Positions 14,155 to 32,724 of a DNA stretch of 39,327 bases are shown piece after piece. The DNA comes from an uncultured Alphaproteobacteria bacterium (GTDB lineage Bacteria; Pseudomonadota; Alphaproteobacteria; Rhizobiales; Aestuariivirgaceae). The first letter of the stretch is position 1; the number at the start of each line of letters is the position of its first letter. Below the pieces are notes generated by a model, which was not told where the DNA came from, ran no database searches, and was given only the letters and a program-made list of their open reading frames with translations. Where the stretch lies: positions 1 to 39,327 of the forward strand of contig CALMWF010000023.1 in assembly GCA_937873445.1 (NCBI GenBank). The letters are read 5' to 3'. Position numbers and translations under genes: made by a program.

Positions 14155-14476
14155 GGGCACTTCCTTCCGCTATGGTGGCACCGGGAGGGACATTCCCGGC
14201 GCGGCCTTCCGTTACGCTTCGGCCGGAGGCACCGGCCCGTTCCTGTCACATAGAGAAGCCACAGCCCCGCCACAGCTTAGAAATCCTCAATCGGCCGGTG
14301 AAGGAAGCTCAAGCCAGGGCCTGGCGAAAAGACCGCGGCCGTGATGGAACCTGCGGCAATTTCTGGCATTATAGCCAAATCTGGCAAGTTTGGGGGCTGC
14401 AATGCGTGGACAGGACGGCAAACGGCATCATCCTGCAACCGTGCTTCGATATGGGGTGACCGGTTCATAAAACAGC
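14155..14476. other. 322-base gap between divergent cysK and HWE kinase genes
   Basis: No gene is supported here. It holds the cysK ribosome site at its left end and, at 14346-14370, a GGAAC-N16-CATT element pointing at the kinase (listed separately). The rest shows no repeat or hairpin of note. Confidence 0.5.
14346..14370 (+). promoter_or_regulatory. Candidate EcfG (sigma-GSR) promoter of the HWE kinase, CATT variant
   Basis: GGAAC (14346-14350), 16 bases, then CATTAT (from 14367). This is the alphaproteobacterial EcfG -35 with a one-base variant of the CGTT -10. The same variant precedes nepR. The leader to the kinase ATG would be about 100 bases. Confidence 0.55.
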
Positions 14477-15706
14477 ATGCGACAGTCCTATTGGAATAAC
14501 CGGCGCCTGTTTGCGGGCGGCGTGCTGCTGAGCGGTGTTGCCGCCCTTGCCACCTATGGCATCGAGCATCAGACCGCCCATGCGGCAATCCCCCATCTGA
14601 CCTGGCTCATCATTCTGGCGCTTGGCCTGATGCTGACCCTGGTGCTCGTCACCTTCCGGGCGGGATCCATGGTGGGCCAGCGCGCCACGACTCTTGGCCG
14701 TGAACTGGCAACCACCGCCACGGAACTGTCCAATGTCCGCCTGATGGAGGAGGCGCTGTTCAACAATGCCGGTGCGGCCATGTGTGAAACCAGCCACGGA
14801 ACCGGCCGATTTATACGCGTCAACGACCGCATGTGCGAGCTGATGGGCTATGGCCGCGACCAGCTTCTGAGCCGTAATTTCGCTGACATCACCCACCCTG
14901 ACGACGTGGCCGTGACCCAGGCCGCCATTACCAGCACAGCGGATCCTGCCAACCCCATCGCCCAGTTTGAGAAGCGCTATGTGCGCAGCGATGGAACGGT
15001 ATTCTGGGCGCTCGTCAACACCCGCATGGTGCGCAACGCCCTGGGTCAGCCCATTTCCTTTGCCACCATCATTGTAGACATTACCGACCGCAAGCAGGCC
15101 GAAGACGTCAAGGCCGCCCTGCTCAGGGAGCTGGCCCACCGGGTGCGCAATACGGTGCAGCTCACCGCAAGCCTGGCCCGCCAGACCGCGCGCAACGCCC
15201 GCTCGGTCAAGGACTATGAACTGAAATTCCAGCGGCGCCTGAGTGCCCTGAAAAACACCCATGACATCCTGTTTGACTCCGACTGGCACAGCGCATCCCT
15301 CAAAGCCCTGTCGCAGCGGGTTCTGGCTCCCTTCATGTCAGGCCAGGGCGACAAGCAGGTGATCACTCTTGACTTGCCCGCTGTGGCCTTGCCGCCGCAG
15401 CACGCCCAGACCTTTGCCATCGCCCTCATGGAACTGGCCGCCAATTCCGCCGCCCATGGGGCTCTTGCCCATGGCGGCACCGTCACCATCACCGCCGACA
15501 TAAAGAGTGGCGCTGCCGGTGAACCCCAGCTTGATTTCCAATGGACGGAACAATCGCCGGTCCGCGTGCAGCGGCCACGGCGCGAAGGCTTTGGCAGTTC
15601 CATTCTGTTCAGCGCATTGCCAAACCAGTTCAGTGGCACCGCCGAAGCACACTGGCCACGCACCGGCCTTGTCTATCACGCCAGTCTGCCGCTCTCCGGC
15701 CTTTGA
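14477..15706 (+). CDS. HWE-type sensor histidine kinase with PAS domain
   Basis: A 409-residue kinase. Two N-terminal TM helices (about 11-28 and 41-60) with almost no periplasmic loop are followed by a PAS domain (about 88-208, ending FATIIVDITDRKQAED). The kinase core has H221 in the ELAHRVRNTVQL box, and RRLSALKNTHDILFDSDWHSASL, the pattern of the HWE family that feeds PhyR in many alphaproteobacteria. The HATPase region shows ELAANSAAHGAL and GFGSSIL. An in-frame TAA lies nine bases before the ATG, so this is the first possible start; the ribosome site is weak. No receiver partner is adjacent. The EcfG-like promoter upstream suggests it belongs to the stress regulon. Confidence 0.87.
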   Translation: MRQSYWNNRRLFAGGVLLSGVAALATYGIEHQTAHAAIPHLTWLIILALGLMLTLVLVTFRAGSMVGQRATTLGRELATTATELSNVRLMEEALFNNAGAAMCETSHGTGRFIRVNDRMCELMGYGRDQLLSRNFADITHPDDVAVTQAAITSTADPANPIAQFEKRYVRSDGTVFWALVNTRMVRNALGQPISFATIIVDITDRKQAEDVKAALLRELAHRVRNTVQLTASLARQTARNARSVKDYELKFQRRLSALKNTHDILFDSDWHSASLKALSQRVLAPFMSGQGDKQVITLDLPAVALPPQHAQTFAIALMELAANSAAHGALAHGGTVTITADIKSGAAGEPQLDFQWTEQSPVRVQRPRREGFGSSILFSALPNQFSGTAEAHWPRTGLVYHASLPLSGL

Positions 15707-17563: not shown

Positions 17564-17902
17564 TCAATCCAGCATTCTGGCACCTGACAGACAAGGGCAA
17601 CCGCCGTATTGCGGGCAATTGCGCCCCTCCGCCTCCTCCAGGATGCCTTCGGGACCTTTGATGAGACCCTCGATGGCCTCGCACCATTTGCCCTCCGGCT
17701 TCTTGCCGATGGAATTTAATACCTGACCCAGCAGTGAAATCTGCTGCTCCGTTTCCGCGAGATGATCGCACAGCGCCTGCTAAAGCCTGCTCTGGCTCAC
17801 CCCCCTGATCACCTTCGGCAGCGCCTTGGTCAGCGCGTTCTCGGCGTACTGCATGTCCTTCAATGTGCTCAAAGCATCGGCAAGCGTCTTCGATTGCTCA
17901 GT
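17564..17902 (-). pseudogene. Decayed DUF892 (YciE/YciF-type ferritin-like) gene
   Basis: The - strand frame from 17902 reads KTLADALSTLKDMQYAENAL and TKALPKV, then reaches a TAG at 17782-17780, and continues HLAETEQQISLLGQVLNSIG, KKPEGKWCEAIEGLIKGPEG. These are the first two helices of the DUF892 stress ferritin-like family, including its KKPxGKxCEAxEGLI stretch. There is no start codon (a TGA lies just upstream), one internal stop, and the second half (helices 3-4 with the remaining metal ligands) is replaced by unrelated residues before a TGA at 17566-17564. About 113 codons remain of a normal ~165. It is a remnant inside the stress island. Confidence 0.8.
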
Positions 17903-17981: not shown

Positions 17982-18062
17982 TCATACAAGAATAACCACG
18001 CCCAGAGCGGCAACCCACATGGCGGCCAGCACCAGGTGCATATGATCACGAGCCTTCAGCAT
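17982..18062 (-). CDS. Putative 26-residue hydrophobic mini-protein
   Basis: The frame codes for a short basic head (MLKARDHMH) followed by one hydrophobic helix (LVLAAMWVAALGVVILV), so it could be a single-pass inner-membrane peptide. AGGA lies six bases ahead of the ATG. A GGAAC-N16-CATT element is placed about 38 bases upstream, giving it the parts of an independent transcription unit. The remnant DUF892 gene follows on the same strand. I do not recognise the protein; it is too short to assign by motif. An alternative is that the promoter once served the now broken ferritin-like gene and this frame is incidental. Confidence 0.45.
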   Translation of the reverse strand: MLKARDHMHLVLAAMWVAALGVVILV

Positions 18063-18099: not shown

Positions 18100-18124
18100 A
18101 ATGCGCCAGTCGCGATTTTGTTCC
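18100..18124 (-). promoter_or_regulatory. Candidate EcfG promoter, CATT variant, upstream of the 26-residue frame
   Basis: On the - strand: GGAAC (18124-18120), 16 bases, CATT (18103-18100). Spacing equals that of the canonical sites nearby. It is back to back with the + strand site at 18169. Confidence 0.5.
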
Positions 18125-18168
18125 TCTGCGCTCTCCCCGCCTCACAATCTGTTCATTTCCAGCTCTGT

Positions 18169-18193
18169 GGAACCCAGGCAGCGTCAGGCCGTT
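18169..18193 (+). promoter_or_regulatory. EcfG-type promoter of the small secreted protein
   Basis: GGAAC (18169-18173), 16 bases, CGTTAT (from 18190). It is a full match to the alphaproteobacterial stress sigma factor consensus, and the start codon lies 23 bases after the -10. Confidence 0.75.
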
Positions 18194-18216
18194 ATCTCAC
18201 CACAAGGAGATCACCC

Positions 18217-18441
18217 ATGCGCATTGCCGCTGTTCTCATTCTCGCCGCCTCGCAGCTCACCGCTGTGCCCTTTGTGTCGGCCCTGGCAATGAATCAGGCC
18301 CGGCAGGCGGACACAGCCAGGCTGGCGGTGACGCAGCTCTCCCCGTCTGAGAATAATCTCAGCGTATTTTATATGACGCCCTCATCACCCGCCGTGACGG
18401 CGGCGGTTGAACTGCGGGAGAACAACCGCACCCCCCTCTGA
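18217..18441 (+). CDS. Small secreted protein of unknown function (74 residues)
   Basis: I do not recognise the family. The protein starts MRIAAVLILAASQLTAVPFV, a signal peptide with likely cleavage near residue 24 (SALA). The mature part is about 50 polar residues with no cysteine (NQARQADTARLAVTQL, then AAVELRENNRTPL). AAGGAGA lies six bases before ATG 18217. A canonical EcfG promoter sits just upstream and a strong terminator 40 bases downstream, so it is a complete single-gene stress unit. An upstream in-frame ATG at 18118 is ruled out because it precedes the promoter. Confidence 0.75.
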   Translation: MRIAAVLILAASQLTAVPFVSALAMNQARQADTARLAVTQLSPSENNLSVFYMTPSSPAVTAAVELRENNRTPL

Positions 18442-18481
18442 ATTCCCTTGAAGCCGATCCCCTGCAAGGCACGCTTCATCA

Positions 18482-18504
18482 ACCCCGCTTCGGCGGGGTT
18501 TTTT
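18482..18504 (+). terminator. Rho-independent terminator after the small secreted protein gene
   Basis: Stem ACCCCGC/GCGGGGT with a TTCG tetraloop (18482-18499) and a following T-run: a textbook intrinsic terminator on the + strand. Confidence 0.85.
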
Positions 18505-18545
18505 CATCCCCTCACCGTGACCCTCCTTTTCCGGAACCAACAGAA

Positions 18546-18573
18546 AAGGCCGGTCTGTTTCCAGACCGGCCTT
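18546..18573 (-). terminator. Rho-independent terminator after the UPF0391 gene
   Basis: A perfect 12-bp stem AAGGCCGGTCTG/CAGACCGGCCTT with a four-base loop. On the - strand it is followed by TTTTCTG. It lies 20 bases beyond the stop of the UPF0391 gene. Confidence 0.8.
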
Positions 18574-18593
18574 GTCATTGGGCGCGCAGCACC

Positions 18594-18773
18594 TCAGGCG
18601 CGGCGCAGAACGCCCAGAACCGCCATGACGATGCCAATGATGATGGCCGCCCAGAAGACGATCTTGGCGCCGCCCATGGCGGTGCCGGCAATGCCGCCGA
18701 AGCCCAGGAAGGCGGCCACAATGGCCACCACAAACAGGACGACAGCCCAGTACAGCAGATTGTTCATGGTCAT
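18594..18773 (-). CDS. UPF0391 (DUF1328) small membrane protein
   Basis: A 59-residue protein ([20 protein letters not shown] start) with two TM helices around a glycine-rich turn ([17 protein letters not shown]), then a basic end (LRRA). This is the DUF1328/YtjA family pattern and length. Its function is not established, and such genes are frequent in general stress regulons. GGAG lies eight bases before the first ATG (18773); ATG 18767 is an alternative. It has its own EcfG promoter and its own terminator, so it is monocistronic. Confidence 0.88.
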
Positions 18774-18824
18774 GATGTGTACTCCAAATCCATGATGCAG
18801 GGGTGAAGTTGCCTTCGCTGAAAT

Positions 18825-18849
18825 AACGTGATGTCACTCACCGGGTTCC
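18825..18849 (-). promoter_or_regulatory. EcfG-type promoter of the UPF0391 gene
   Basis: On the - strand: GGAAC (18849-18845), 16 bases, CGTTAT (from 18828). Full consensus; about 50 bases from -10 to the ATG. Confidence 0.75.
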
Positions 18850-18895
18850 ATGGCGGTGGCATTTTCCGCACCTTGTGGAGAAGACAAAAGGAAAA

Positions 18896-18922
18896 CCCCC
18901 AGGCACCATGGGCGTCCGGGGG
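18896..18922 (-). terminator. Likely terminator after the holin-like gene
   Basis: An imperfect stem with CCCCC/GGGGG ends (18896-18900 and 18918-18922). On the - strand it is followed by TTTTCCTTTTG, 22 bases beyond the stop of the membrane protein gene. Confidence 0.65.
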
Positions 18923-18944
18923 CGGTTGCAATGAAAGCTGATGC

Positions 18945-19379
18945 TCAGCGCCGGCGCAGCATGCGCCCTGCAACAAAGCCAATGGCCCCAATGGCGGCCG
19001 CCGTCTGCATGGCAGTCTTTGGTTCATTCAATGTCGAGCGCACCGACTGCGCAGTTGAGTCCACCAGATTGACCAGCGGCTGCAAACCAAGGTCCTGCGG
19101 CGACAGATCCCTTTGCGGACGCGCGGTGCGCACCATGACCAGCCACAATCCGGCCACCACGACCAATGCGCCACCTATAACCGCGTCGGCGATGCCGGTT
19201 CCCAGCGCCAGTTCCACCGCCAGGTAATGGCGGAGAGCCGACAGCAGGAAACCCGTTGCCGCCAAAGTGATGACGCCGATCACCGCATAGTGGGCGCCTG
19301 AAACCGTGGCGTTGCGAAGCTGCTGCTGCAGCCGCGCCAGACCGAGGGACGAAATGGCGAGTTGGACAAGCCGCATCAT
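18945..19379 (-). CDS. Phage-holin-family-like small membrane protein (stress operon)
   Basis: A 144-residue protein with two central TM helices (about 31-55 and 62-84, AVIGGALVVVAGLWLVMV) and a weaker C-terminal hydrophobic stretch ending in MLRRR. The layout fits the holin superfamily III/DUF1469-like proteins that sit after DUF883 genes in many proteobacteria; despite the name they are chromosomal, not phage. It starts four bases after the DUF883-like stop, with GGAAA seven bases before ATG 19379, so the two are co-translated from the EcfG promoter at 19817-19841. Its role, probably in the envelope, is not established. Confidence 0.72.
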   Translation of the reverse strand: MMRLVQLAISSLGLARLQQQLRNATVSGAHYAVIGVITLAATGFLLSALRHYLAVELALGTGIADAVIGGALVVVAGLWLVMVRTARPQRDLSPQDLGLQPLVNLVDSTAQSVRSTLNEPKTAMQTAAAIGAIGFVAGRMLRRR

Positions 19380-19383
19380 GGCG

Positions 19384-19782
19384 TCATTTCCGGGTCATGA
19401 AGCCAAGCACAACGCCGATGCCCAGCGCGGCCACAACCGCACCCACCGGGTTGCGCGCCACAAAGCGCTCGACATCGGCAAGTGTCTGGCTGGCGCGGCT
19501 CTGCGCCTGGTCCACACCGCGGTTGCCAAGGTCAGATGCATTGGCCATCAGGCGATCGGTGCCTTCCGCCACGTCACCGGCACTGCGCTTCACCCGATCG
19601 GCAACGTCATCGGCAACACGTTTGACCTTTTCACTGGCACCATAGGCCATGTCCTTGACGCTGTCGGCCGCTTCATCAGCCATGCTGCCAATGCGCTCGC
19701 CCATGCGTTCGCTCATGTCAGCAGCGGCGCGGCGCGTCTTGTCCAGAGTCTCAGAAGCAGATGGGTAGTTGGAACGGCCCAT
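19384..19782 (-). CDS. DUF883/YqjD-ElaB-like tail-anchored protein
   Basis: A 132-residue protein. Residues 1-108 form a long, charged amphipathic helix rich in Ala, Asp, Lys and Arg with heptad-like repeats (DEAADSVKDMAYGASEKVKR). Residues 109-132 form a C-terminal anchor (ARNPVGAVVAALGIGVVLGF, MTRK). This is the DUF883 pattern; E. coli relatives YqjD and ElaB bind ribosomes at the membrane in stationary phase. GAGGAG lies six bases before ATG 19782. A longer frame from 19818 is rejected because that codon falls inside the EcfG promoter. It leads a two-gene operon with the holin-like gene. Confidence 0.8.
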   Translation of the reverse strand: MGRSNYPSASETLDKTRRAAADMSERMGERIGSMADEAADSVKDMAYGASEKVKRVADDVADRVKRSAGDVAEGTDRLMANASDLGNRGVDQAQSRASQTLADVERFVARNPVGAVVAALGIGVVLGFMTRK

Positions 19783-19816
19783 GGCGGTCTCCTCGGTTGC
19801 GTGGTTGTAGCCAGAC

Positions 19817-19841
19817 AACGGGCAGGATCATCGCCGGTTCC
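19817..19841 (-). promoter_or_regulatory. EcfG-type promoter of the DUF883-like/holin-like operon
   Basis: On the - strand: GGAAC (19841-19837), 16 bases, CGTTGT (from 19820). It also fixes the DUF883-like start at 19782. Confidence 0.75.
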
Positions 19842-19868
19842 ACGGCGTGACGACGAGAAATCAGAAAA

Positions 19869-20414
19869 TTACGGCCGTTGATTGGTAAGCGCCGCCATGG
19901 TGCCGGCGTCGGGTCCATAGACACTGCCGTCGGTAAGATGAAGCAGATCAGCCAGCTTGGCGCGCGCCCTGTTCACCCTGCTCTTGATGGTGCCCACGGC
20001 AACACCGCAAATGGCGGCCGCCTCCTCGTAGGACATGTCGGAAGCGCTGACCAGCAGCAGGGCTTCGCGCTGGTCGGCGGGCAGTTTGGCCAGTGCGCTC
20101 TTCATGTCGTTCATGTCCATGTGTCCGTCCTGAGACGGATGAACCCCGACATTGAGGGCTATCTCGCCATCGGCATCTTCAACCTCACGGCCGCGCTTGC
20201 GCAGGGTGGTGTAGAATTCATTGCGCAAAATGGTGAACAGCCAGGCGCGCAGATTGGTGCCCGGCGTGTAGGAATTCTGATGAGCCCAGGCCTTGGTTAG
20301 TGTCTCCTGTACCAGATCATCAGCCCGGTCCACCTTGCCGGCCAGAGAAATGGCAAAAGCACGCAGCGACGGCATGGCCGCCAGAAGATCGCGCTTGAAG
20401 TCATGTGAACTCAT
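19869..20414 (-). CDS. ecfG: EcfG-type ECF sigma factor (general stress response)
   Basis: A ~181-residue sigma factor of the ECF15/EcfG group, which directs RNA polymerase to GGAAC-N16-CGTT promoters. Region 2 (about 12-80) includes DDLVQETLTKAWAH and the -10 recognition helix NLRAWLFTILRNEFYTTLRKR. Region 4 (about 110-160) includes LPADQREALLLVSASDMSYE and GVAVGTIKSRVNRARAKL. ATG 20414 is preferred because GGA lies six bases upstream; ATG 20420 would add two residues. It follows nepR on the same strand by 32 bases and is divergent from phyR, the standard alphaproteobacterial arrangement. Under stress, phosphorylated PhyR draws NepR away and frees EcfG. Confidence 0.94.
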   Translation of the reverse strand: MSSHDFKRDLLAAMPSLRAFAISLAGKVDRADDLVQETLTKAWAHQNSYTPGTNLRAWLFTILRNEFYTTLRKRGREVEDADGEIALNVGVHPSQDGHMDMNDMKSALAKLPADQREALLLVSASDMSYEEAAAICGVAVGTIKSRVNRARAKLADLLHLTDGSVYGPDAGTMAALTNQRP

Positions 20415-20446
20415 GGTCATTCCATGCCGGCAAAAAGTGCTGAACC

Positions 20447-20623
20447 CTAGGACGTCTTCTCATCCAGTTCCTGCAGAAGCTGCAGAAAGCGGTCTGGTAT
20501 CTCCTGGTTGGTAATGCCGTCGTAATAGGTCTTGAGCTGCTGACCAAGCGACCTCTCCACCGTCGTGGGAACACGCGCGGCAGTTTTGCTTTTGGTGTGA
20601 GGTTTGGTCGGTTTGCTGGTCAT
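20447..20623 (-). CDS. nepR: NepR anti-sigma factor
   Basis: A 58-residue protein with a charged, disordered N-terminus (MTSKPTKPHTKSKTAARV) and the conserved NepR core (LGQQLKTYYDGITNQEIPDR followed by FLQLLQELD). NepR holds EcfG inactive by spanning its two domains and is bound instead by phosphorylated PhyR. It lies directly upstream of ecfG on the same strand, so anti-sigma and sigma share the promoter at 20670-20694. It is easy to miss because of its length. Confidence 0.93.
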   Translation of the reverse strand: MTSKPTKPHTKSKTAARVPTTVERSLGQQLKTYYDGITNQEIPDRFLQLLQELDEKTS

Positions 20624-20669
20624 GATCGTCTCTCGTTCGCCCGGTGGGGCGGGGGTCTATAGCCTCCAT

Positions 20670-20694
20670 AATGCTGTAATCCGAAAACGGTTCC
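20670..20694 (-). promoter_or_regulatory. Candidate EcfG autoregulatory promoter of nepR-ecfG, CATT variant
   Basis: On the - strand: GGAAC (20694-20690), 16 bases, CATTAT (from 20673). It has one mismatch to the canonical -10. It is placed back to back with the phyR promoter, with 16 bases between the two elements. Confidence 0.65.
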
Positions 20695-20710
20695 GCTGAC
20701 AAAAAATAAT

Positions 20711-20735
20711 GGAACCCGTCCCGGCAAATTGCGTT
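20711..20735 (+). promoter_or_regulatory. EcfG-type promoter of phyR
   Basis: GGAAC (20711-20715), 16 bases, CGTTAA (from 20732). Full consensus; a positive feedback site for the stress response. Confidence 0.78.
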
Positions 20736-20788
20736 AATAAGAGCTTGAGTGATGATGCGGGGCCACAGCCCCGGGGCTATACAGGGAG

Positions 20789-20805
20789 GGTTGGCTAAGC
20801 CAACC
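20789..20805 (+). promoter_or_regulatory. Inverted repeat between the phyR ribosome site and start codon
   Basis: GGTTGGCTAAGCCAACC, with perfect arms around one central base. It sits between GGGAGGG (20784-20790) and the ATG at 20816. As RNA it could form a 7-bp hairpin with a TAA loop. Folding would shorten the otherwise too-long distance from ribosome site to start. As DNA it could be a protein site. Confidence 0.45.
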
Positions 20806-20815
20806 ATTTGATTTT

Positions 20816-21610
20816 ATGACACTTTCTTCTGTCGTTGCGCCGCACTTGCCCTATCTTCGCCGCTATGCCCGGGCACTGACCGGCTGGCAGTCCTCAGGGG
20901 ACGCCTACGTTGCCGCGCTGATGGAAACCCTGATTGCCGATCCCTCCCTCATCAAGGCAAAGGCAGATCCGCGCATTTCCCTGTTTCATGCGCTGAGTCG
21001 CCTGTGGGGGGCTGTTGCCATAAACAACCGCAGTGAGGCGTCCCGTCCCGGCTGGGAGGAAACCGTTCAGGACCGTCTGGCCGCCATTCCCGGCACCGCC
21101 CGCCAGGCCTTTCTGCTCATGGCAGTCGAGGATTTCTCCCTCGACGATACGGCGGCCATTCTCGGCCTGACCCCGGAAGAGGTGTCGGAAAAATATGACG
21201 AGGCCAACCGCCAGATCTCGGAAATGATCGCCAGTGACATTCTGATCATCGAGGATGAACCGCTCATCGCCATGGATCTGGAGGAAATTGTCACCTCCCT
21301 CGGCCACAGCCTGGTGGGCGTGGCCCGCACCCGCGACGAAGCAGCCAGGATTGTCGCCCGGCGCAAACCGCAATTGGTGCTGTCTGATATCCAGCTGGCC
21401 GATGGCAGTTCCGGCATTGATGCCGTCAATGACATTCTGAAGGATCAGGATGTTCCGGTCATTTTCATCACCGCCTTCCCGGAGCGCCTGCTCACCGGTC
21501 TGAGGCCGGAACCCACCTTCCTCATCACCAAGCCCTTCTCGCCCGAAATGGTGAAGGCCCTCATTGCCCAGGCCCTGTTCTTTGACATGAAGGCGGGGTC
21601 CGCTGTCTGA
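20816..21610 (+). CDS. phyR: PhyR anti-anti-sigma response regulator
   Basis: A 264-residue switch protein of the general stress response. The N-terminal ~135 residues mimic an ECF sigma factor (APHLPYLRRYARALTG, then IPGTARQAFLLMAVEDFSLD and TPEEVSEKYDEANRQI). The C-terminal receiver has predicted phosphorylation site D191 in LVLSDIQLADGSSG and a conserved Lys in LITKPFSPE. Once phosphorylated by an HWE-type kinase, the sigma-like domain binds NepR. The start matches the family N-terminus. It is divergent from nepR-ecfG. The ribosome site is distant, with a hairpin in between. Confidence 0.95.
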   Translation: MTLSSVVAPHLPYLRRYARALTGWQSSGDAYVAALMETLIADPSLIKAKADPRISLFHALSRLWGAVAINNRSEASRPGWEETVQDRLAAIPGTARQAFLLMAVEDFSLDDTAAILGLTPEEVSEKYDEANRQISEMIASDILIIEDEPLIAMDLEEIVTSLGHSLVGVARTRDEAARIVARRKPQLVLSDIQLADGSSGIDAVNDILKDQDVPVIFITAFPERLLTGLRPEPTFLITKPFSPEMVKALIAQALFFDMKAGSAV

Positions 21611-21632
21611 TATTAGTTGCAGCTGCAAAGCA

Positions 21633-21660
21633 AAAGGCCCTCCGTTTCCGGAGGGCCTTT
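21633..21660. terminator. Bidirectional terminator between phyR and dps
   Basis: A 12-bp perfect stem AAAGGCCCTCCG/CGGAGGGCCTTT with a TTTC loop between two convergent genes. A/T-rich flanks lie on both sides, so it can end transcription both ways. Confidence 0.82.
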
Positions 21661-21684
21661 CTCGTTTCTGGTGGCTGGCCGGGC

Positions 21685-22167
21685 TTAGCCGTTGGTGGCG
21701 CGCAGCATCCAGATCGCCTTTTCGTGGAACTTGATGCAATCCACCAGCATGTCGCTGGTCACGATGTCATCGGCGTCGTCGGCCTTGCCCGCCAGCTCGC
21801 GGGCCGCGCGCGCCCCGTCCTCGTTCATCTTGGCCAGCTCTTCAACCATTGCGGCAATGTCCTTGCCGGTGACCCGCGCCGACACAGTGAATTCCCTGGT
21901 CGGACCATTGGCCGGAACGAAGCTGCCCAGGGCCCGCATGCGCTCGGCCAGAAGGTCCACCGTCTCGAACAGGGCGCTGTAATGCTCATCCGTAAGCTTG
22001 TGGATGGGATAGAACAGATCGCCCTTGAGGTTCCAGTGCACCAGCTGGGTGGTCAGAAGAAGCTCATAGGTGGAAACCAGATACTTCCCCAGGCCGGCCG
22101 CAATGGCAGCGCGGTCCTTGGCGGCAAGGTCGGTGTTCACGGGTTCGATCATCTTGGTCACGGTCAT
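21685..22167 (-). CDS. dps: Dps family DNA-protecting ferritin-like protein
   Basis: A 160-residue four-helix protein that stores iron by oxidising Fe(II) with peroxide and can coat DNA. The inter-subunit ferroxidase residues are present: His in LVHWNLKGDLFY, the second His in PIHKLTDEHY, and the Asp/Glu pair around ALFETVDLLAERMRALG. AAAGGA lies six bases before ATG 22167; an ATG five codons earlier has no ribosome site. It follows the 25-residue gene at 22212 on the same strand and is probably read from the EcfG promoter at 22349-22373, making it a stress-regulon member. Confidence 0.9.
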   Translation of the reverse strand: MTVTKMIEPVNTDLAAKDRAAIAAGLGKYLVSTYELLLTTQLVHWNLKGDLFYPIHKLTDEHYSALFETVDLLAERMRALGSFVPANGPTREFTVSARVTGKDIAAMVEELAKMNEDGARAARELAGKADDADDIVTSDMLVDCIKFHEKAIWMLRATNG

Positions 22168-22211
22168 GATTTTTCCTTTCAATTTTACGGGGGTAGCCGC
22201 CGGAGCGCGGT

Positions 22212-22289
22212 TCAGATCACGTTGAAGACATAGAGAAGGATGATGAGCGGAATGGGCAGTCCAAGCAGCCAGAGTGCGGCACCTTTCAT
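22212..22289 (-). CDS. 25-residue hydrophobic mini-protein upstream of dps
   Basis: The frame codes for MKGAALWLLGLPIPLIILLY plus a five-residue tail ending at an Ile: a single membrane helix broken by a Pro pair. AGGAGA lies six bases before the ATG, one of the best ribosome sites in the window. A full-consensus EcfG promoter lies about 60 bases upstream. The next gene, dps, begins 44 bases after the stop. Translation is well supported; function is unknown. A role in the membrane under stress is only an inference. Confidence 0.7.
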   Translation of the reverse strand: MKGAALWLLGLPIPLIILLYVFNVI

Positions 22290-22348
22290 GATGTATCTCC
22301 TGATGGGGGAATTTGGTTGAGGATCACGGCGGCGTTCAGTTCCCCGGT

Positions 22349-22373
22349 AACGGGCCAGGGTGGGCGCAGTTCC
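22349..22373 (-). promoter_or_regulatory. EcfG-type promoter of the mini-protein/dps operon
   Basis: On the - strand: GGAAC (22373-22369), 16 bases, CGTTAC (from 22352). Full consensus. It is back to back with the kinase promoter at 22407. Confidence 0.75.
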
Positions 22374-22406
22374 ACCATTTCGTGAAAGAAATATTTTCGC
22401 GGCCAA

Positions 22407-22431
22407 GGAACCGTCCGTCCCAGGCCCCGTT
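22407..22431 (+). promoter_or_regulatory. EcfG-type promoter of the CHASE3 hybrid kinase operon
   Basis: GGAAC (22407-22411), 16 bases, CGTTCT (from 22428). The kinase ATG at 22469 lies 38 bases past the -10, which supports that start over the longer open frame. Confidence 0.75.
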
Positions 22432-22468: not shown

Positions 22469-25036
22469 ATGATTACCAAAGCCGTCATGTCTCCGGTGCT
22501 TCGCGGTATTGTTTATTTTCTTCTGACACTCTCTTTGCTGGCATTGCTGACCGGCCTTATGCAGATTGTGCGGGCCCAGATCGGCCTTGCCGCGCAGAAC
22601 ACCTTCCTGCAGGCCGCCGACCGCCATCAGGCCGCGCTCGCAGATGTGGAAACCTCCTACCGCGGCTATGTCATCACGGCGAGCGAGTCCTATTTGCAGC
22701 CCTATCGTGAAGCCGCCGATGCCATTGGCAGTCTGACCATGACCCTTGAGCAGAGCGCTGCTGCCGCCGGCATTCCCGACCAGGCCCTGACCAGCATCAA
22801 GGACTATGCCTCGGCCCTCTTCGGCTTTGCCGAGGAGGTGACAACAGCCCGCAACACCTCTTTCGAATTGGCCAAGGGGATCATCAACACCAACCGCGGC
22901 AAACAGTTGATGGACGGCGTGCGCTCAAACACGGCGCTGATGCACAACATGGCTGATGCCACCATCGCCCGCTTGACCCGTCAGCAATATTCTCTCTGGC
23001 TGCCGGTGGCCTTGGCGGGCCTGGTGGGAACCCTCATGATGACGGGTCTCATACTGGCCATGGTGCGGCGCAGCCGCGATGCCTCGCTGCGGGCCCGATC
23101 CCTGCTCACGGATGTTCTCGACCGCGCGCCCGTTGGCCTCGCCCTGATCGATCAGAACAACGCCATCCAGCAACAGAATCCGGCCTTCGCCCGCCTCATG
23201 GGGCGCAGCGCTTCTGCTCTGGTGGGAGCGCCCATGGCCGCCGTGGTGCCGGAACTCCACCAGATCATCAGCCCGCGCATGACCGAGGCCCTGGCCTTCC
23301 GGCGCATCCCCGCCCAGGGAGACGAGGACAAGCCCTTCGAGATTGATACACCGGAAGGCACGAAATATTTCAAGGCCGAAGTCTTTCCGGTCACCCTGGT
23401 GGATAATGAAGGGCGCCACACAGCCGGCGCCGGTCTGGTTCTGTCCGATCTGACGCGCCAGCGTGAAGGCGAGCTGCAATTGGAGCAGGCGCGCGATGAA
23501 GCTCAGTCAGCCAACCGCGCCAAGTCGGCCTTCATTGCCAATATGAGCCATGAACTGCGCACCCCCCTCACCGCAGTGCTGGGCTATTGCGAGCTGATCG
23601 AGGAAGAGCTTCGTGACAAGGGTGAGGAAGCCATTCTTTCCGACCTTAACAAGATCGGCGTCAATGCTCGGCATCTCCTTGGTCTCATCAACGACGTACT
23701 CGACCTGTCCAAGGTTGAGGCCCAGAAAATGGACGTTCACGCCGTCGATTTCACCGTTGCAACCCTTCTGGACGAGGTCGAAGCCGCCACCGGCAGCCTG
23801 ATGATGCGCAACAACAACCGCCTCACCCTTGCTGCTGCCGACCGTAACCATGTCCTGTCCACCGATGATCTGAAAGTGAAGCAGATCCTGCTCAACCTCA
23901 TCGGCAATGCCGCCAAGTTCACCCGTGATGGTGAGATCACCCTCAGCGTCAGCCATCAGCAGCAGGAAGGCAAGGCGCTGACCCGCCTGGAAGTGTCGGA
24001 CAACGGCATCGGCATGACTGCCGAGCAGGTCGATAATCTGTTCAAGCGCTTCACCCAGGCCGATGAGACCACCACCCGCAAATATGGCGGCACCGGTCTT
24101 GGCCTGGCGCTCACCAGCGCGCTCGCCATCATGCTGGGGGGAGAAATCACCGTGGAAAGCACACCCGGCGTGGGCAGCCGCTTTGTTGTCACCATTCCAA
24201 GCCGATATGAAAAGCCGGTGGCAACCGTGGCCGAAGCAGGACCGGAAAATGCCCCCGCCACGGCGGGTCCGCTTGCCCGGTCCACCCGTGGCACTGTTCT
24301 GGTGGTGGATGATGAGGCTTCGGCCCGCGACCTGCTGCAGCGTCATCTGAGCCGGGAAGGTTTCTCCGTGGTCACGGCCGCCACCGGCGCAGAGGCGCTG
24401 GACAAGCTCAAGACCGGCGATCCCGCTGCTGTGCTTCTGGATGTCATGATGCCGGGCATGGACGGCTGGCACGTGCTGCGCGCCATCCGCCAGAACCCCG
24501 CCACCAGAACCATACCGGTCATCATGCAGACGGTGCTGGACGAACAGCACTTTGCCTACACCCTGGGCGCCTCCGGTTACCTGCAAAAGCCGGTGAAGCG
24601 GCCGCAGCTCGCCGAGGCGCTGGCCAGCGTGCTGGCCAGCCATGACGGCAAAAGCGTTCTCATTGTTGATGATGACGCCGCCGCCAACAGCCGCCTCAAA
24701 ACCATGTTTGAAAAGCAGGGCTGGCGCGTGCGGCTGGCCCGTGACGGCGCCGAAGGCCTTGACGCCATGGTGCGCAGCCGCCCGTCGCTGGTTCTGGTTG
24801 ATCTCATCATGCCGGGCATGAACGGTTACGAATTCGTGCGCCAGGTGCGCGCCCATGACGAATGGTCCGCCATCCCCCTGGTGGTGATGACCGCCGAGGA
24901 TGTGAAATCAGCCAAGGTTCGCACCCTTGCGCCTGAAGCCAAAGCCATTGTTCAGAAGGGTGCCATGTCCATGGCTGACCTTGTGGCTGACCTGCGCCGT
25001 TTTGTTGACCAGCCGCCCAACCCCCCATCCGCATGA
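22469..25036 (+). CDS. CHASE3-PAS hybrid histidine kinase with two receiver domains
   Basis: An 855-residue membrane kinase. TM1 (about 11-33) and TM2 (about 173-195) enclose a CHASE3-type periplasmic sensor (ADVETSYRGYVITASESYLQ is its hallmark). A PAS domain follows (about 210-330). HisKA has H361 in NMSHELRTPLTAVLGYCEL, and HATPase_c shows NLIGNAAKFTRDG and GGTGLGLALTSALA. Two C-terminal receivers have predicted sites D658 (LLDVMMPGMDGW) and D778 (LVDLIMPGMNGYEF). AGGGAGA precedes ATG 22469; 52 further in-frame upstream codons overlap the promoter and are rejected. It heads an operon with a one-domain receiver and a transporter-like gene. Confidence 0.92.
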   Translation: MITKAVMSPVLRGIVYFLLTLSLLALLTGLMQIVRAQIGLAAQNTFLQAADRHQAALADVETSYRGYVITASESYLQPYREAADAIGSLTMTLEQSAAAAGIPDQALTSIKDYASALFGFAEEVTTARNTSFELAKGIINTNRGKQLMDGVRSNTALMHNMADATIARLTRQQYSLWLPVALAGLVGTLMMTGLILAMVRRSRDASLRARSLLTDVLDRAPVGLALIDQNNAIQQQNPAFARLMGRSASALVGAPMAAVVPELHQIISPRMTEALAFRRIPAQGDEDKPFEIDTPEGTKYFKAEVFPVTLVDNEGRHTAGAGLVLSDLTRQREGELQLEQARDEAQSANRAKSAFIANMSHELRTPLTAVLGYCELIEEELRDKGEEAILSDLNKIGVNARHLLGLINDVLDLSKVEAQKMDVHAVDFTVATLLDEVEAATGSLMMRNNNRLTLAAADRNHVLSTDDLKVKQILLNLIGNAAKFTRDGEITLSVSHQQQEGKALTRLEVSDNGIGMTAEQVDNLFKRFTQADETTTRKYGGTGLGLALTSALAIMLGGEITVESTPGVGSRFVVTIPSRYEKPVATVAEAGPENAPATAGPLARSTRGTVLVVDDEASARDLLQRHLSREGFSVVTAATGAEALDKLKTGDPAAVLLDVMMPGMDGWHVLRAIRQNPATRTIPVIMQTVLDEQHFAYTLGASGYLQKPVKRPQLAEALASVLASHDGKSVLIVDDDAAANSRLKTMFEKQGWRVRLARDGAEGLDAMVRSRPSLVLVDLIMPGMNGYEFVRQVRAHDEWSAIPLVVMTAEDVKSAKVRTLAPEAKAIVQKGAMSMADLVADLRRFVDQPPNPPSA

Positions 25037-25044
25037 GGAACACC

Positions 25045-25416
25045 ATGGCCAAGATACTTCTCGTCGAAGACAGCGAACAGATATGGGATTTCCTTGCCCG
25101 CCGTCTGGAACGGCGCGGCCACAGTGTCATCCTCGCCCATGATGGTGAACAGGGGCTGGAAAATGCCAGGGCATCACTGCCTGATGTCATTCTGCTGGAT
25201 ATGAACCTTCCGGTGATGGATGGCTGGACGGCAGCGCGCGCCCTCAAGGGCGAAGGGGCTACCCGCCAGATTCCCATCATCGCCCTGACCGCCCATGCCA
25301 TGGCCGGTGACCGCGACAAGGCGTTGCAGGCGGGTTGCGATGACTATCACCCCAAGCCCATCGACTTTGCCAAGCTGTTGGCCCAGATTGACGTCGTCAC
25401 GACGCGTGCCGGCTGA
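25045..25416 (+). CDS. Single-domain response regulator (CheY/DivK-like)
   Basis: A 123-residue stand-alone receiver. Acidic pocket residues follow the first strand (LLVEDSEQ), with phospho-acceptor D52 (LLDMNLPVMDGW), Thr in ALTAHAMAGD and Lys in DDYHPKPIDF. This sequence type is close to DivK and to receivers that pair with hybrid kinases. GAGGA lies five bases before ATG 25045; an ATG at 25033 overlapping the kinase stop would add four residues. There is no output domain, so it likely passes phosphate on or binds a partner protein. Confidence 0.9.
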   Translation: MAKILLVEDSEQIWDFLARRLERRGHSVILAHDGEQGLENARASLPDVILLDMNLPVMDGWTAARALKGEGATRQIPIIALTAHAMAGDRDKALQAGCDDYHPKPIDFAKLLAQIDVVTTRAG

Positions 25417-27384: not shown

Positions 27385-29028
27385 CTAGGCCTGGTCCGGC
27401 CTTGATGATTGCACCAGTTTTTCCTTCGGCACATTGAAGGTGACCACCACGCCGCTTTGGCTGAACACCCGCTCCACCGCACCATTGAGATCACCGCGGA
27501 TGGTGGCTTCCATCAGCCGGGAACCGAAACCCTTGCGCTCCGGCACCTGCGGCGGCCTGTCATGGTGTTCGCGCCACTCCAGCACTAGCCGACCATCCGG
27601 CGTGAATCCCCAATCCACCGCCAGGGCGAACTTCTGTTCGGCTGCTCCCCCATATTTCAGGGCATTGGTCGCCAGCTCGTGGAAGGTGAGGCCGAAGGCC
27701 TGGGCCGCCCTCTCGTCGAGTTCAAAATCAGGCCCGGTCAGGCTCATGTTGTCAGCCTGCGCGCCAAACACCTGCTCCATTTCATTGCGCAGCAGCTGGC
27801 GGAAACTGGCGCGTTCCCAGTGCGAACGGGCCAGCGTGTCCTGGGCTGTTGCCATGGCCTGCAAACGCGCCTGAAAGGTGGTGTTGAACTCCTGCATGTC
27901 GGCTGAGCCATTGGCGGTTGCCCGGGCAATGGCTGTCACCCGCGCCAACAGGTTCTTGATGCGGTGGTTCATCTCCTGCAGCAGCAGATCCTTGTCATCC
28001 AGCGCCTTCTGCGACAGCGCGGACAGGCGGTGGGCCGCGTCGGCCGACCTGAGCTGGGCCCGCGCCAGCCAGCCCAGCGCCCCCGCCAGAACCAGCGAAA
28101 TCAGGGCCAGAAGCGGCCCCAGCGACTTGCGCAGGGTCAGGACAAAATCCTGCCCCTCCACCACATGGAACTGCCATGTCCGGCCGGCAATCCTGACCTC
28201 GGCCGTGGCATCCCGCCCATGTTCAACCTTCTCCTCATCAAAGCCGGGACTGCGGTAAAGCAGCGCCGGAGCGCCCGAGGAGACATCATAACTTTCCACC
28301 GCCGCCGACCTGGCATCGAACCCGGCAAAGGCTGCCGCATGCAGATCGCCAGCCCGGAAGGGCGCATAGACAAAGCCGCTGATTGGCTGGGGCGAACCGG
28401 TTGGCGTGGTCTGGCTCTGACCCTGTGCAAAGACCGGCACATAGATGAGAAAGCCTGGCTGCTTCTCGCTGGTGATTTCCTGCTTGAGCTGCACTGGTGC
28501 GGTTGCCCGCGGCAGGCCGGTGGCCCAGGCATTGTCCATGGCCTGACGCCGGTTGGCTTCGCTGTACATATCATAGCCCAGTGCTGCCCGGTTTCGTTCA
28601 TCATCTGGCTCCAGCATGACGATGCTGGTGCGCAGCGGCTGGGCGCTTTCCGGCCAGACTGTCCGGTCAAGGCCATAGTCGGCCTTGATGCGCGCGCTCA
28701 CCGCCGCTTCGCCGCCGGGCGGAATGACCTCGGCATAACCCACGCCCTGAATGCCAAGATAGGCATCGCGCAGATCAAAATGGGCCACCATATCGCGGAA
28801 GTCAGTCCGGGGCGGTGTGGCCCGCGCCACATCAATGAGGGCCCGGACCCCCTCCAGCACGGCGATGTGGTGATCAACCTTGACCTGAACCCGCTGGGCT
28901 GCCTCGCGCGCCATGCCTTCGATGCGCAGCCGACCAGCCGTGCGGTCGGCGGAGTAGACTGAATAGCTCAACGCCAGACCAAGCGCTGATGTGCCGAGAA
29001 ATACCAATCCCGGAAGGAATCTCTGCAT
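27385..29028 (-). CDS. HWE-type histidine kinase with CHASE-like periplasmic sensor
   Basis: A 547-residue kinase. TM1 (about 5-26) and TM2 (about 303-325) enclose a ~275-residue CHASE-type sensor (AYLGIQGVGYAEVIPPGGEA, then SIVMLEPDDERNRAALGYDM and IYVPVFAQG are typical). The core has H355 in LLLQEMNHRIKNLLARVTAI, ARLQAMATAQDTLARSHWERA and HELATNALKYGG, the HWE family marks, and ends GFGSRLMEATIRGDL. GGGGAC precedes the ATG. No receiver is adjacent. Such orphan HWE kinases often phosphorylate PhyR, whose gene lies 6 kb away, so it is a good candidate input to the stress system. No EcfG promoter is seen upstream; TATACT near 29070 could be a housekeeping -10. Confidence 0.88.
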   Translation of the reverse strand: MQRFLPGLVFLGTSALGLALSYSVYSADRTAGRLRIEGMAREAAQRVQVKVDHHIAVLEGVRALIDVARATPPRTDFRDMVAHFDLRDAYLGIQGVGYAEVIPPGGEAAVSARIKADYGLDRTVWPESAQPLRTSIVMLEPDDERNRAALGYDMYSEANRRQAMDNAWATGLPRATAPVQLKQEITSEKQPGFLIYVPVFAQGQSQTTPTGSPQPISGFVYAPFRAGDLHAAAFAGFDARSAAVESYDVSSGAPALLYRSPGFDEEKVEHGRDATAEVRIAGRTWQFHVVEGQDFVLTLRKSLGPLLALISLVLAGALGWLARAQLRSADAAHRLSALSQKALDDKDLLLQEMNHRIKNLLARVTAIARATANGSADMQEFNTTFQARLQAMATAQDTLARSHWERASFRQLLRNEMEQVFGAQADNMSLTGPDFELDERAAQAFGLTFHELATNALKYGGAAEQKFALAVDWGFTPDGRLVLEWREHHDRPPQVPERKGFGSRLMEATIRGDLNGAVERVFSQSGVVVTFNVPKEKLVQSSRPDQA

Positions 29029-32526: not shown

Positions 32527-32724
32527 ATGAACTGGGACCGCATTGAAGGCAATTGGAAGCAGATCAAGGGCCAGGCCAAGATCCAGTGGGGGAAGCTCAC
32601 CGACGATGACCTTGACCTCATCGAGGGCAACCGCGACCAGCTGGAAGGCAAGCTGCAGGAACGCTACGGCTATGCCAAGGACAAGGCCAGGTCCGAGGTC
32701 GATGGCTGGATGAATCGCATGTAA
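32527..32724 (+). CDS. CsbD family stress protein
   Basis: A 65-residue hydrophilic protein (MNWDRIEGNWKQIKGQAKIQ, then WGKLTDDDLDLIEGNRDQLE and GKLQERYGYAKDKA). This is the complete CsbD/YjbJ domain, a small helical protein abundant under general stress whose function is not known. AGAGGAGG precedes the ATG. It stands alone on the + strand, with a GC-rich hairpin after its stop. In many alphaproteobacteria csbD genes belong to the EcfG regulon; here the promoter match is imperfect. Confidence 0.93.
   Translation: MNWDRIEGNWKQIKGQAKIQWGKLTDDDLDLIEGNRDQLEGKLQERYGYAKDKARSEVDGWMNRM

Follow-up and report, generated by a model that had tools for sequence, protein, structure and literature searches.

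A general stress response locus with clustered predicted EcfG promoters in an uncultured alphaproteobacterium and a recurrent microprotein among its putative outputs

Introduction

Positions 1 to 39,327 of contig CALMWF010000023.1 from an uncultured alphaproteobacterium (family Aestuariivirgaceae, assembly GCA_937873445.1), referred to here as the window, carry short elements of the form GGAAC-N16-C(G/A)TT crowded around genes for PhyR, NepR and an EcfG-type extracytoplasmic function (ECF) sigma factor. Are these elements promoters for the EcfG whose gene lies among them, and which genes would they serve? Judged from sequence, it is highly probable that this is a general stress response (GSR) locus whose nine elements are promoters for its own EcfG; a 25-residue open reading frame (ORF) behind one of them, named orf25, appears to be a recurrent GSR output.

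Clustered elements at a general stress response locus

Scanning both strands of the window for GGAAC-N16-C(G/A)TT gave nine elements, eight of them within 18100-22431 (Table 1); six of the eight have CGTT and two CATT as the -10 element, and the ninth, with CATT, lies ahead of a PAS-HWE histidine kinase gene. An earlier sequence-only reading of this DNA had described eight elements, all N16, in about 4.3 kb, each upstream of a start on the matching strand, and the scan agrees: with starts assigned by hand, a same-strand ATG follows the end of the -10 element at 23-80 bp for all eight (our home-made gene caller had called the genes for PhyR, NepR and a 132-amino-acid (aa) protein from internal starts). 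Both divergent pairs that it named, 20670/20711 and 22349/22407, are correct, and a third, 18100-/18169+, was missing from its list. The spacing is strict, as GGAAC-Nk-CRTT with k from 8 to 25 matched the window nine times at k=16, twice at k=20, once each at k=10 and k=13 and at no other value.

By its gene content and motif-level promoters, the locus is a canonical alphaproteobacterial GSR control locus, with PhyR, NepR, an adjacent EcfG-type sigma factor, predicted promoters for both phyR and nepR-ecfG, and an HWE kinase. NepR scores below the cut-off of the equivalog model NF051865 (23.5 against 100), although it exceeds that of its Pfam family, and the sigma factor is assigned to EcfG by family and context, its model NF009199 being named only 'RNA polymerase sigma factor'. 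In the commonest alphaproteobacterial layout nepR-ecfG and phyR are transcribed divergently, each from an EcfG-dependent promoter (PMC4814048), and the published EcfG consensus is GGAAC-N16-CGTT, in which a change of CGTT to CATT lowers transcription in vitro (PMC7083833). The cluster adds a new example to this already known arrangement: the PhyR-NepR-EcfG loci described for Methylorubrum, Sphingopyxis, Sphingomonas and Caulobacter share the divergent nepR-ecfG/phyR genes, the EcfG-type promoters, the GGAAC-N16-CGTT motif and the nearby HWE kinases. Unlike those loci, the window has eight to nine strict predicted promoters crowded into one locus, one of them ahead of a candidate sensor kinase gene and several ahead of very small genes, and its strict N16 spacing differs from the motif fitted for S. 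melonis, GGAAC-N17-20-GTT (PMC6599016).

The evidence supports reading the elements as predicted EcfG promoters because genes for PhyR, NepR and a sigma factor of the EcfG type lie in the locus, the spacing is strict, and all nine sites are kept in a close relative in which the spacers have diverged (see below). GGAAC-type -35 elements occur across several ECF groups, which would suit sites that are ECF promoters used chiefly by a different ECF sigma factor encoded in the genome. This we regard as very improbable, since the EcfG-type gene sits inside the cluster together with NepR and PhyR, the motif is identical to the published EcfG consensus (PMC7083833) and orf25 is associated with PhyR across the order.

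Table 1. Features of the window discussed in the text, in the order of their coordinates.
Feature	Coordinates	Strand	Basis or remark
EcfG-like promoter, 106 bp before PAS-HWE kinase	14346..14370	+	CATT, N16; 106 bp likewise in closest genome
PAS-HWE histidine kinase, candidate PhyR phosphodonor	14477..15706	+	Pfam HWE_HK, PAS
26-aa ORF	17982..18062	-	no Pfam or NCBIfam match
EcfG-like promoter for 26-aa ORF	18100..18124	-	CATT, N16
EcfG-like promoter for 74-aa ORF	18169..18193	+	CGTT, N16
74-aa ORF, family not assigned	18217..18441	+	57% identical stretch in closest genome
DUF1328 small membrane protein	18594..18773	-	Pfam PF07043 above cut-off
EcfG-like promoter for DUF1328 gene	18825..18849	-	CGTT, N16
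144-aa protein	18945..19379	-	weak Holin_3_6-like match, under gathering score
132-aa protein	19384..19782	-	weak Rv1893-like match, under gathering score
EcfG-like promoter for 132-aa/144-aa gene pair	19817..19841	-	CGTT, N16
EcfG-type ECF sigma factor, adjoins nepR	19869..20420	-	NF009199 270.9 bits, cut-off 219; Sigma70_r2, r4
NepR anti-sigma factor	20447..20623	-	PF18557 47.4 bits, cut-off 25.7
EcfG-like promoter for nepR-ecfG	20670..20694	-	CATT, N16
EcfG-like promoter for phyR	20711..20735	+	CGTT, N16
PhyR	20816..21610	+	NF006623 358.7 bits, cut-off 240; PhyR_sigma2, PhyR_sigma-like, Response_reg
Dps/ferritin-like protein	21685..22167	-	Pfam Ferritin
25-aa hydrophobic ORF (orf25), putative membrane microprotein	22212..22289	-	family mostly 23-28 aa
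EcfG-like promoter for 25-aa microprotein, probably also Dps	22349..22373	-	CGTT, N16
EcfG-like promoter for hybrid kinase	22407..22431	+	CGTT, N16
CHASE3-PAS-HisKA-HATPase-REC-REC hybrid kinase	22469..25036	+	domain matches
Single-domain response regulator	25033..25416	+	domain match
CHASE-HWE histidine kinase	27385..29028	-	HWE/HisKA_2-type kinase match

Background of the motif and conservation of the sites

Could the matches be chance words in GC-rich DNA, with only the nepR-ecfG/phyR pair as true promoters? In 100 dinucleotide-preserving shuffles of the window the pattern occurred 0.47 times on average and five times at most, so that none reached nine. The genome-wide scan with background that the sequence-only reading had proposed, run over the assembly of 2,583,347 bases in 47 contigs, gave 51 matches of GGAAC-Nk-C(G/A)TT at N16 against 24 at N15 and 17 at N17, with none of the N15 and N17 matches on the contig of the window; by simple arithmetic the genome-wide rate predicts about 0.09 matches per 4.3 kb. 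The pattern read backwards proved an uneven control, with 29, 103 and 32 matches at N16, N15 and N17, respectively. We examined 49 of the 51 N16 matches, 40 of them outside the window, the two on contig C44 being dropped as duplicates of those on C42; these two contigs of the source assembly (G000) repeat the two matches at a 15-base offset and are probably duplicated. By the calls of the home-made gene caller, 28 of the 40 fall inside genes, as would suit chance words, and 12 are intergenic, whereas all nine elements of the window are intergenic with a same-strand start downstream.

Conservation bears on the same question. The closest genome found (G014), whose PhyR is 89% identical, was compared over 16 kb and contains exactly nine sites there, one for each site of the window, with strand, place and N16 spacing all retained, despite spacers that are only 42% identical (61 of 144 bases; 4-8 of 16 at each site except nepR). 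Its hybrid-kinase site lies 39 bp upstream of the start homologous to that of the window; the caller labelled two of the nine sites intragenic because it had extended the hybrid kinase upstream. Chance was rejected for the outer sites on the grounds that all nine are conserved with diverged spacers, and we consider it extremely improbable that only the nepR-ecfG/phyR pair are promoters.

Several observations nevertheless weigh against reading all nine elements as EcfG promoters. The spacers of G014 keep some residual similarity (42% against 29% for shuffled partners, and 12 of 16 bases at nepR), and part of the site conservation is therefore plain relatedness. CATT, the variant form, stands in three of the nine window sites, that of nepR-ecfG among them, and three of nine sites swap CGTT and CATT between the window and G014. 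Over the whole genome, GGAAC-N16-CGTT alone is not in excess (23 matches, with 28 for the reversed control), a point that also suits chance words, and the signal therefore lies in the local pile-up and the placement of the elements.

In further relatives, EcfG-like sites recur ahead of PhyR, NepR, CsbD, DUF1328 and orf25; the caller was trained on the genome of the window and failed on relatives of lower GC content, leaving many sites there without a named downstream gene. Within the genus of the window, full-length PhyR was found in 14 of 25 genomes (G000-G024), the other 11, of which eight have a completeness of 90% or more, giving only receiver-type matches; within a single genus the GSR core thus seems to be patchily distributed. 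Counts of GGAAC-N16-CGTT per genome average 32.4 where PhyR is present (14 genomes) and 24.8 where it is not (11 genomes), with a Mann-Whitney p of 0.04 that takes no account of genome size or relatedness. As a signal of PhyR, this genome-wide count was given little weight, the reversed pattern often being equally common or commoner in the neighbours of 24 of these 25 genomes.

The sequence-only reading had also called the cluster a local stress regulon, which stands as far as a regulator locus with its neighbours is concerned; the 12 intergenic matches elsewhere indicate that the predicted regulon is wider than the locus. Eleven of the 12 have a same-strand start downstream, and a scan of all 11 products identified a diacylglycerol-kinase-like enzyme, COX1, a flavodoxin-UbiA fusion, an FMN reductase, a HisKA kinase, Fe-SOD, FolE, DUF992, a sigma-70 factor, which we take to be RpoH-like, and a YkuD L,D-transpeptidase, one product having no match. 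About nine of some 20 strict intergenic sites genome-wide sit in the GSR locus.

A putative hydrophobic microprotein behind one of the predicted promoters

The sequence-only reading had proposed the elements as markers of start sites, and in this they proved useful: the 22349 site flagged orf25, whose coding status is supported independently. In four relatives a comparable ORF lies 31-41 bp downstream of an EcfG-like site. With a profile built from four sequences (E 0.01), orf25 was detected in 83 of 249 genomes sampled from the order; by genus, the count is 39 of 111. Of 93 matches 90 were fetched, and two without an ATG (L162, L179) were dropped, leaving 88 copies for analysis, of which 86 are 23-28 residues long and two have longer predicted starts that give 36 and 37. 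An alignment of 26 members reads MxRGxLLWLLGVPIPxIILLxLF, where one position each of L, G and P is invariant, and the mean hydropathy over residues 4-23 of orf25 is 2.07.

A ribosome-binding-site word precedes 83 of the 88 copies; in a control window that was shifted, the count is 5 of 88. Between the window and G014, orf25 differs by 12 synonymous codon changes and no nonsynonymous ones, every change being at a third position, and over 2809 pairs of copies, which are not independent, codons with a single change are synonymous in 15637 cases and not in 4201, where 28% synonymous would be expected. Because of this synonymous bias and the ribosome-binding-site word, orf25 looks like a coding gene.

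None of the 26 members matches Pfam at E 0.1, and in NCBIfam three match TIGR03024 (best E 0.022) and one TIGR04561 (E 0.093), which is chance level, with none over a curated cut-off. A tblastn search of a plasmid collection with three peptides gave no match, although the low-complexity filter may mask a hydrophobic query and the result is no proof of absence. Four peptide strings of the family had no text match in the literature searched, supplements not being covered, and wider literature searches, judged by titles and opening lines of abstracts, returned nothing recognisably on the family. The 25-aa family therefore has no name in Pfam or NCBIfam; we do not claim its first detection, as the S. 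meliloti protein SEP6 may belong to it. SEP6 is likewise shorter than 30 aa; it has a predicted transmembrane helix, was found in the membrane/ribosome pellet and is conserved in Hyphomicrobiales (PMC10117765), the comparison being by description. The term RpoE2 does not occur in the main text of that paper.

We then related orf25 to the GSR through its promoter and through PhyR. Defining a site as GGAAC-N16/17-(C/T)(A/G)TT within 200 bp upstream, we found one at 55 of the 88 copies; in 48 of them the -10 element lies at a distance of 20-60 bp, and 38 of the 55 have a gap of 30-37 bp. Among the remaining genes of these loci, leaving out those that share the promoter of orf25, 11 of 101 have such a site. 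At the off spacings of 14 and 19 the counts were 4 of 88 and 1 of 101, respectively. PhyR (NF006623, E up to 1e-40) is present in 81 of the 83 genomes with orf25 and in 69 of the 166 without, an association for which the Fisher value overstates the evidence, the genomes being related. In a class-wide draw searched with a second profile (E 0.001), PhyR was found in 28 of 46 orf25-positive genomes as against 28 of 291 others. The promoter survey beyond the order drew on 30 loci of this draw and 10 of a phylum-wide draw; with L193, L217-L220, L222 and L223 omitted as already counted and L202 set aside for a misplaced start, 29 of 30 further loci were counted, of which 13 have an EcfG-like site and none has one at the off spacings.

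Other counts run in the opposite direction. No EcfG-like site was found within 200 bp of 33 of the 88 copies, 18 of the 46 orf25-positive genomes of the class-wide draw have no PhyR match, and in the phylum-wide draw of 299 genomes 11 of the 41 orf25-positive ones lie outside the class. As those 18 genomes gave no PhyR match and 11 carriers belong to other classes, the link of orf25 to the GSR is not universal. Within the order, orf25 appears to be a recurrent GSR output, with a function that we infer.

A different view would be that orf25 is a mere leader peptide or a chance ORF and that its promoter serves the downstream gene, which is Dps in the window. The two are collinear there, 45 bp apart, and in 12 of the 88 loci a protein of about 300 aa begins 10-16 bp downstream of orf25. 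The neighbours vary, however, the next gene being on the opposite strand in 30 of the 76 loci with a called neighbour, and the absence of nonsynonymous changes against G014, the ribosome-binding-site word and the recurrent gap to the promoter argue for a gene in its own right. A mere leader was rejected on the coding evidence and the variable neighbours, and we rate the leader or chance ORF as unlikely. The downstream proteins, among them that of L126 (1582-2499), are 284-355 aa long and alike by eye; of these, the L126 protein was scanned and matched nothing in Pfam or NCBIfam, and the ~300-aa protein is possibly a functional partner of orf25.

Discussion

The locus suggests the following mechanism, in which the partner switch and its self-induction are taken from published work. 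Under stress an HWE-type kinase would phosphorylate PhyR, a step that we infer here, PhyR would take NepR off EcfG, and EcfG-RNA polymerase would read GGAAC-N16-CGTT/CATT. The divergent pair 20670/20711 would make nepR-ecfG and phyR self-induced, and the 14346 site would add the PAS-HWE kinase, a candidate sensor that presumably feeds PhyR, to the feedback loop. The remaining sites would drive Dps, DUF1328, the 132-aa and 144-aa proteins, which we take to be YqjD-like and YqjE-like, respectively, the hybrid kinase and the very small genes. The orf25 product most likely acts on the membrane, where we would place it, or on a membrane-bound partner.

Two small proteins outside the class offer parallels by description. 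E. coli YohP, a stress-linked membrane protein of 27 aa, resembles orf25 in length, hydrophobicity and the predicted stress induction, although regulator and bacterial class differ (PMC12719787). Listeria Prli42, a membrane miniprotein whose N-terminal end is basic, is likewise linked with a general stress response and works on the stressosome/SigB, unlike orf25, for which no partner is known (PMC6614362). For orf25 we slightly favour a YohP-like general membrane adjustment under stress over a Prli42-like tuning of a membrane-bound partner, given the variety of its neighbours and the presence of the family in genomes that gave no PhyR match. The balance of evidence tilts modestly towards the unnamed single-helix family of 23-28 residues, xRGxLLWLLGxPIPxIILL, being a conserved output of the EcfG-GSR across much of the order, perhaps a feedback component, and a functional counterpart of YohP/Prli42 that was missed through its size.

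The cluster would be a compact, apparently self-induced regulon, with promoter, regulator, candidate sensor and effectors side by side. Many GSR targets still carry the label hypothetical, as in tables of PMC6599016, and strict EcfG promoters can flag genes that fall under annotation size. If the 25-aa family is indeed driven by EcfG and affects stress survival, a missing effector or regulator would be added to the GSR.

Further features of the locus

The second HWE-type kinase of the window, the CHASE-HWE kinase, has no EcfG-like site in the 220 bp upstream. The 26-aa gene may be truncated or very small, because its counterpart in G014 has 57 aa with an N-terminal stretch that is similar by eye. 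Behind the counterpart of the 18100 promoter, G014 has a DUF892 gene, to which window positions 17583-17891 show 70% likeness at the DNA level; this stretch has no minus-strand ORF longer than 79 aa and therefore looks like a broken remnant. At that place G014 also has a DAO-type oxidoreductase gene, of which the window seems to lack a counterpart. The CsbD-like gene of the window (32527-32724) has no strict or one-mismatch EcfG site in 220 bp, unlike several relatives, in which csbD lies near phyR and behind an EcfG-like site.

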